Assembly: GCA_009691025.1 (NCBI GenBank)
Contig: SHWB01000001.1
Span: forward strand, 1 to 64,000
Length of the DNA stretch: 64,000 nucleotides
Origin: Alphaproteobacteria bacterium
Lineage (GTDB): Bacteria > Pseudomonadota > Alphaproteobacteria > UBA6615
Reading direction: 5' to 3'
The position numbers were made by a program, and so were the translations under genes. Under the pieces are notes generated by a model, which saw only the letters and a program-made list of their open reading frames with translations, was not told where the DNA came from and ran no database searches. Positions 8,321-10,174 of this stretch are shown here, one piece after another (position 1 is the stretch's first letter; every line of letters begins with the position of its first letter).

Positions 8321-8546
8321 CCCCGCAGGCGAGGGTCGACGGAAGGGCACGAAGCCGTGGCGGGTAAATATGGCAGTTACCATGCCTTAAAAGTTTCGGC
8401 GCACAATAATTTGGGTCTAGGCTTCCATTCACGGGCGCGGGAATCCGCGCCCGGAAGCGACGGAAGAAACGATCTGCTGGGAGGAAATAACAACAATAAC
8501 AGGGTCCTGGGAGAAATTCTCCTTCATTTCTGGAAGGGAGTTTCTC

Positions 8547-8978
8547 ATGTCAGACATGATCGTTGCCCTCATGCTCTGGGCCTCCTCCATCACTGGTCTG
8601 CCGTCGGCGAACGTGTTGCCGGAAGTTGCCATGGAGACATCGGATCCGCTTTATGCGCGTATCCATGGCGAGGCGCCCGGCGCGCGCGCCGCCGCCAGCT
8701 AAGTCCTCGCCGTCTACGACATCCGCGAGCGCACGGTACGACAGCGCGAAGGCTGGGACCGCGACAACATCGTCCATGTCTCGATCCTGCTGCACGAAGA
8801 CGTGCACCATATGCAGGAGGCGTCGAGCACCAGATATGCGTGCCGGGGCGCGCTGGAGGCCGTGGCCTACGACGCCCAGCACCGGTTCCTCGCCGAACAC
8901 GGCATCGAGATGGGCCCTTCACTCGGCCTCGACCCGCTGTTCCGGGCCATCGTCACCTCCTGCCCATGGGGCTTCTGA
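8547..8978 (+). pseudogene. DUF6647-like putative metalloprotein gene with internal TAA
   Basis: From the ATG at 8547 (AAGGGAG ribosome site) a 143-codon frame runs to TGA at 8976 but is interrupted by TAA at codon 52 (8700-8702). The first part reads as a secreted or membrane-anchored N-terminus (MIVALMLWASS). The part after the stop contains ILLHEDVHHMQ, a zincin-like HExxH-type motif of DUF6647 proteins, and keeps sense coding to the end. A single substitution would restore it. It is either recently inactivated or translated by readthrough. The ORF track misses it because of the stop. Confidence 0.62.
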
Positions 8979-9070
8979 GCACGCGACCGCATAGGCGCCG
9001 GTACGCGGTTCGCGCTATCCTTGCCGGCGCGGGTGCAGGTCTTGCCCCGCAGCGTAGCAGGGAGGGTTCG

Positions 9071-10174
9071 ATGGTCACTATAGTCGCCGGGCTCGGCGAA
9101 CGCGACGTTGCGGCGGCGCAGGCCGATGGTGACGACCTCTGGCTGCCGGCCGATGTCCTGCCCGCGGTCGTCGGCTTGACGCTGAAGCCCGAGGGCCTGT
9201 GCCACGACGCGCTGTGCGTGCCGGTGCCGCGCGGCCGCGAAGCGGCCTTCGTGCGGGACGGGCGGGTAAACCTCGCCGCCTTCTGGCGCCATACCGAGCG
9301 CCCCTGGGCGCGCAGCGAAGCCGGCGACCTCTGGGTCTTCGTCGCCAATGCGCGCGAGCGCGCCGACGAGTGGCTGTCACTGCAGGCGCCCGACTGCGCG
9401 CTGCCCGATCTTGCAGGCAACATGAACGCGCTTTCCGGACAGCGCGGCAAGAAGGTCTTCCTCGTTACCTGGGAGTCCTGGTGAGGCTGCCGTAATGACA
9501 TGTCCGTGTGGCAGGATATTTACGCGAGTCTGAAGGACCAGGGTTTCATGGTGTTCACCGTCGCGATGGATGCGGATGCCGAGGCGGCGCGTCCGTTCAT
9601 CGAGGGCGAGAAGCCGACGCATGTCAGCGTCAACGACCGCGATCATGTCGTATCCGGCCTGTTCAACATGGTCAACGTGCCGCAGGCAGTATGGATCGAC
9701 GAGACCGGCCACATCGTCAGCCCCGTGGAGATCGCCGGGGTGACGGAGGCCTTCCGCGACGGCCTCGACCGCACGACCGGGACGATGGCGCCCGCGGTGA
9801 TCGCACGCAACGTGGTGATACGCCATGCGTATGTGGATGCTATTCGCGATTGGGTGGAGAAAGGTGCCGCAAGCCGGAACGCCATAGATTCCGGCCGCGA
9901 GCGCGAACTCATGGCCTTGCTCGACGACCGCATTGAGGAGGCGCATGTGCAGTTTCGTTTTGCACAGGCGCTGCTGCGGCGCGGTCGCGAAAGCGAGGCG
10001 CAAGGGCCGGTCGAGCGGGCGCGTACGCTGCATCCGCAATCTTGGACCATCTGGCGCCAGACGTCGGCAAAGAACGCGCTCGGGCTCGCCTCTCATGCCG
10101 AGCTCTTTGCACGCATCGACGCAACGGCACCGGGCGGCTTCTATCCGCCGGTCGATATGGACGGCCTGCCGTAA
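9071..10174 (+). CDS. ResA-like thioredoxin-fold selenoprotein (in-frame TGA = Sec138)
   Basis: This is a single 367-aa reading frame if the TGA at 9482-9484 is read as selenocysteine. The ORF track splits it into the tail of 8357..9484 and 9500..10174, but both are in the same frame with no indel. The start ATG 9071 follows GGGAGGG. Residues 1-100 form an N-terminal domain (LTLKPEGLCHDALCVP), about 105-270 are an AhpC/ResA-type redoxin, and about 270-367 are a helical, TPR-like tail. The active site reads WESW-U-GCRND, matching the WASWCGCRxD Cys site of related redoxins, so Sec replaces the nucleophilic Cys and C140 can act as partner. NVPQAVWID carries the cis-Pro. A SECIS-like hairpin follows the TGA. 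It is probably a thiol peroxidase or disulfide reductase. Confidence 0.8.
9482..9514 (+). promoter_or_regulatory. Candidate bacterial SECIS element after the Sec codon
   Basis: Directly 3' of the TGA, CTGCC (9487-9491) pairs with GGCAG (9510-9514), and ACAT (9498-9501) pairs with GTGT (9506-9509, last pair U-G). The apical loop is GUCC, with six unpaired bases bulged on the 5' side. The loop starts 17 nt after the TGA with G then U, fitting the loose bSECIS rule (loop about 16-37 nt downstream, G among the first two loop bases) and resembling the GU loop of E. coli fdhF. Folded by hand only. Confidence 0.55.

Follow-up and report, generated by a model that had tools for sequence, protein, structure and literature searches.

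Does the TGA at positions 9482-9484 of this alphaproteobacterial DNA terminate a protein, or does it specify selenocysteine (Sec) within a redox active site? In the window, by which the whole analysed stretch of 64,000 nucleotides is meant here, the open reading frames 8357..9484 and 9500..10174 share one frame, and this TGA is the sole break between them, as the preliminary description had pointed out. When the TGA is read as Sec from the ATG at 9071, the joined frame runs to a stop codon at 10172-10174 and encodes 367 amino acids, with U138 in the motif W-E-S-W-U138-G-C140-R (Table 1). Homology spans both sides of the TGA, with matches to the NCBIfam profile NF041054 (aa 26-331), to Pfam AhpC-TSA (105-216) and to the ResA structure 4nmu (93-219), which bears out the placement of the codon at the redox-Cys position of a thioredoxin fold that continues on either side. 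We infer Sec incorporation at U138 and judge it very likely, because the source genome encodes the Sec machinery, 88 of 92 homologues carry TGA at the matching codon, a downstream RNA hairpin is conserved among them, and the codon pattern of this hairpin is lost in the Cys-containing forms.

Table 1. Coordinates of the features of the selenoprotein locus and of the Sec machinery genes in the source genome.
Feature	Position	Strand	Basis
Probable ribosome-binding site, GGGAGGG	9060..9066	+	Sequence; precedes ATG 9071
Predicted selenoprotein gene, 367 aa with U138; UGC-containing ResA/TlpA-like, NF041054-type	9071..10174	+	Joined translation, NF041054 match, homologues
Family-specific N-terminal domain (about aa 1-107), LKPEG-C motif, invariant C44 and C49	9071..9391	+	Alignment, model, searches
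Thioredoxin-fold AhpC-TSA/ResA-like domain (aa 105-216), W-E-S-W-U138-G-C140-R	9383..9718	+	Pfam, PDB sequence match, AlphaFold2 and Foldseek
In-frame TGA read as Sec (U138)	9482..9484	+	Joined translation and homologue alignment
Apical hairpin of putative bacterial SECIS; stem 9501-9504/9510-9513, loop CGUGU 9505-9509	9501..9513	+	Starts 16 nt past TGA; family conservation
C-terminal helical, weakly TPR-like tail (aa about 241-367)	9791..10171	+	AlphaFold2 secondary structure; sub-threshold TPR_14
selA	contig C14, 4163-5503		Over cut-off
selB	contig C14, 5545-7413		Over cut-off
tRNA-Sec, anticodon TCA	contig C14, 11081-11175		71.8 bits, over cut-off
selD	contig C14, 12429-13331		Over cut-off

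The source genome is an alphaproteobacterial metagenome-assembled genome (61% complete, 27 contigs), and its sel genes lie on a contig other than that of the selenoprotein gene. selA, selB, tRNA-Sec and selD are all found within 9.2 kb, each above its curated cut-off, and the absence of selB and selC, which the preliminary description had named as a possible objection to its reading, is thereby removed. Furthermore, each of the 12 TGA-bearing genomes tested has a selB above the cut-off; in the genome of the relative L058 the best tRNA-Sec match is marginal, at 49 bits.

A search of 190 genomes from the class of the source genome gave twelve strong NF041054 matches, the window protein included, and each of them contains a single in-frame TGA, always at the UGC position. 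A single-sequence query of the public genome set found no relative, and a search of public genomes that used the family alignment as its query yielded 446; the best 80 of these have TGA at the UGC codon in 76 cases and a Cys codon in 4. No relative was found in viral contigs and plasmids. The 12 class members and the best 80 public relatives together form the set of 92 homologues, which are not all independent because several records, though not all, are shared between the 80 and the class genomes, and their exactly matching codon is TGA in 88, TGC or TGT in 4, and a codon for any other residue in none. The closest relative, L054, is TGA-bearing, shares 62% identity with the window protein and pairs with it in the tree with full support.

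The Cys forms belong to one Pseudorhodoferax and three Myxococcaceae (L084, L089, L103 and L104) and are nested among Sec forms in the tree, a position that suggests two Sec-to-Cys replacements. Neither selB nor tRNA-Sec is over the cut-off in the Pseudorhodoferax genome, and both are over it in the three Myxococcaceae genomes. Some taxonomic labels in the tree call for comment in their own right. Two sequences labelled Chloroflexota (L091 and L110) are placed inside a gammaproteobacterial group, which suggests horizontal transfer or a binning error, and two bins labelled Bordetella parapertussis (L063 and L083) carry a gene nearly identical in form to that of uncultured Burkholderiales bins, so that these labels look wrong.

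The RNA downstream of the TGA is constrained throughout the family. The 78 distinct TGA sequences all retain the hairpin consensus UGYC-(CGUGU or AGKUU)-GGCA, and pairs 19-31, 20-30, 21-29 and 22-28 (numbered 0-based from the TGA) occur in every one of the 78 distinct 48-nt sequences. One step further out, the next pair is formed in 76 of the 78, including one C-G to U-A double change, and the following outward pair is formed in 49 of the 78, which exceeds all 1000 shuffles. The codons past UGC are restricted, as counted over 77 distinct 45-nt TGA sequences: the Leu/Met/Val codon invariably ends in TG, Ser is TCC or TCA, Trp is TGG and Gln is CAG in 75/77. The Pro codon is CCC or CCA in 52/52, yet CCG and CCT make up 57% of the Pro codons in the same genes (CCG 48%), and the Val codon is GTG or GTT in 67/67, yet GTC and GTA account for 41% of their Val codons (GTC 36%). 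In addition, the loop codons covary without exception, CCC/TCC occurring only with GTG/GGG and CCA/TCA only with GGT/GTT. These codon and pair counts are inflated by kinship, as the sequences are not independent. The four Cys forms carry GCG-CTG, CCC-GTC, CCT-GTC and CCC-GTC, and have thus lost the hairpin codon pattern.

The support for the hairpin comes from this conservation in 78 homologous TGA sequences and not from folding of the window sequence alone, which gave z = -0.97 against shuffles and was not significant. The apical stem of the window is weak (-1.5 kcal/mol), and its outermost conserved pair is broken because Leu became Met (ATG). The preliminary description was right that a SECIS-like hairpin lies downstream of the TGA; the GU-starting loop that it assigned to the hairpin comes from pairing in a different register (9500-9505/9514-9519); for the window sequence this register gives the more stable fold (-6.1 kcal/mol), but it is not the conserved one. 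A placement just 3' of the UGA agrees with what is generally stated about bacterial SECIS elements. SelB together with Sec-tRNA(Sec) would decode UGA 9482 through this hairpin.

Two other explanations would dispense with Sec altogether. In a draft metagenome bin, a nonsense mutation or a sequencing error might in principle turn a Cys codon into a lone TGA, which would make the locus a pseudogene or an assembly error, but exactly this TGA codon is shared by the 88 TGA-bearing homologues from unrelated assemblies, including L054, both halves of the protein around it stay conserved, and the source genome encodes the machinery for its decoding, so that such an origin is very improbable. The ATG at 9500 might instead start a separate protein after an upstream one that ends at the TGA. 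Against this, the thioredoxin fold would be cut within its active-site motif, nearly all homologues have a Leu codon (CTG/TTG) where this ATG stands, and the four Cys relatives have a single uninterrupted frame, and we regard a pair of genes as scarcely credible. TGA 9482 is very likely decoded as Sec.

To which family does the selenoprotein belong? Its match to NF041054, 'WAxxUGC_long' (ResA-like WAxxUGC motif-containing protein), aligns aa 26-331 with positions 9-316 of the 354 in the profile at 215.9 bits (E 9e-64), which is below the equivalog cut-off of 300 bits, and because this cut-off is not reached the protein is best regarded, from its sequence, as a divergent homologue or as belonging to a subfamily. 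Of the 12 class members with TGA, just 5 reach the cut-off, and L054 itself scores 275 bits. The window protein resembles the family in length, architecture, UGC motif and TGA position, and differs from it in reading WESW instead of WAxx and in leaving the last ~38 profile positions unaligned. It is therefore very probably a selenoprotein of this known UGC-containing ResA/TlpA-like family, as a divergent member. The profile takes in not only the UGC domain but also the N-terminal LKPEG-C domain before it and most of the helical tail after it, and UGC-containing Prx-like selenoproteins were listed from GOS metagenomes in 2008 (PMC2398784), named again later (PMC9312934) and entered under the name 'UGC-containing TlpA disulfide reductase family protein' in PMC13188914. 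The earlier suggestion that this combination of domains may not have been described thus fails, because NF041054 already models the long form with both flanks and such selenoproteins already appear in these listings, which describe their proteins by domain and motif and share with the window protein the AhpC-TSA/TlpA domain and the UGC motif. A literature search found no paper on the NCBIfam motif name or on 'ResA-like' selenoproteins. The SelL-related redox protein profile NF040769, named by NCBIfam after the selenoprotein SelL and likewise thioredoxin-like, was matched by one of the 12 members, weakly.

At the domain level, the ResA/AhpC-like assignment was correct. Among Pfam families AhpC-TSA ranks first, sequence comparison with solved structures gives ResA and DsbE-like proteins as the nearest, and the AlphaFold2 model, built with the 12-member alignment, has a mean pLDDT of 87 and finds its best Foldseek matches in the PDB among ResA/TlpA/DsbE-type proteins. 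Family-invariant residues include C44, C49, U138, G139 and C140. The selenoprotein has the thioredoxin fold and the active-site position in common with the ResA/TlpA/DsbE thiol-disulfide oxidoreductases, and it differs from them by having UxC instead of CxxC, an extra N-terminal domain, a C-terminal helical tail and no obvious export signal. Identity with ResA of cytochrome c maturation was considered and rejected, since the protein has UGC in place of CxxC, and no hydrophobic N-terminal segment that could anchor an extracytoplasmic domain is seen by eye in its sequence; it is probably cytosolic.

U138 would take the place of the first Cys of the ResA/TlpA CxxC motif with C140 as its partner, and for this reason the protein is most likely, with moderate confidence as to its chemistry, a thiol/selenol-disulfide reductase. 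It may cycle through a U138-C140 selenenylsulfide or through mixed selenenylsulfides with its substrate, the former being the most economical proposal for the reaction. Its rival is a protein that acts mainly as an AhpC/PrxQ-like peroxidase, a reading favoured by the top Pfam family, by the name 'Prx-like' given to the group in PMC2398784 and by the frequent service of Sec in peroxidases. The AhpC/PrxQ peroxidatic motif PxxxT/SxxC is absent, however, as the protein reads VFLVTWESWUGC, and by both sequence and fold its closest matches lie among ResA/TlpA/DsbE-like proteins, which makes a mainly peroxidatic function rather unlikely.

Clustering of the neighbourhoods of the 92 loci found no gene kept beside the UGC selenoprotein family. 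Shadow frames overlapping the gene aside, the best neighbour cluster occurs at 13/92 loci and consists of scattered catabolic genes that, on visual inspection, include acyl-CoA dehydrogenase, SDR and tricarboxylate-receptor types. Upstream in the window, the 143-aa frame at 8563-8994 (+) lacks an NCBIfam match, and an alternative frame of the same segment reads HEDVHH (HExxH-like), so that either may be the coding one.

For the 107 residues of the N-terminal domain, a separate model built from 34 sequences has a pLDDT of 92, and searches found no PDB sequence relative, no PDB fold match at E <= 0.001 and no convincing Pfam match for the window sequence. Among 181 class genomes, the domain was found only at loci of the UGC selenoprotein family. 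It is conceivable, if doubtful, that C44 and C49 form an unusual in-protein redox partner or a metal/cofactor site that feeds electrons to U138-G-C140, and if this were true, the selenoprotein would carry its own reductant relay.

To conclude, a Sec-decoding system and one target of it are confirmed in a poorly known alphaproteobacterial lineage. Many TGA-bearing members fall under the NF041054 naming cut-off and risk being annotated as two truncated reading frames. Furthermore, the Sec-to-Cys replacements, with their matching loss of the hairpin codons, offer a natural control for the SECIS constraint.
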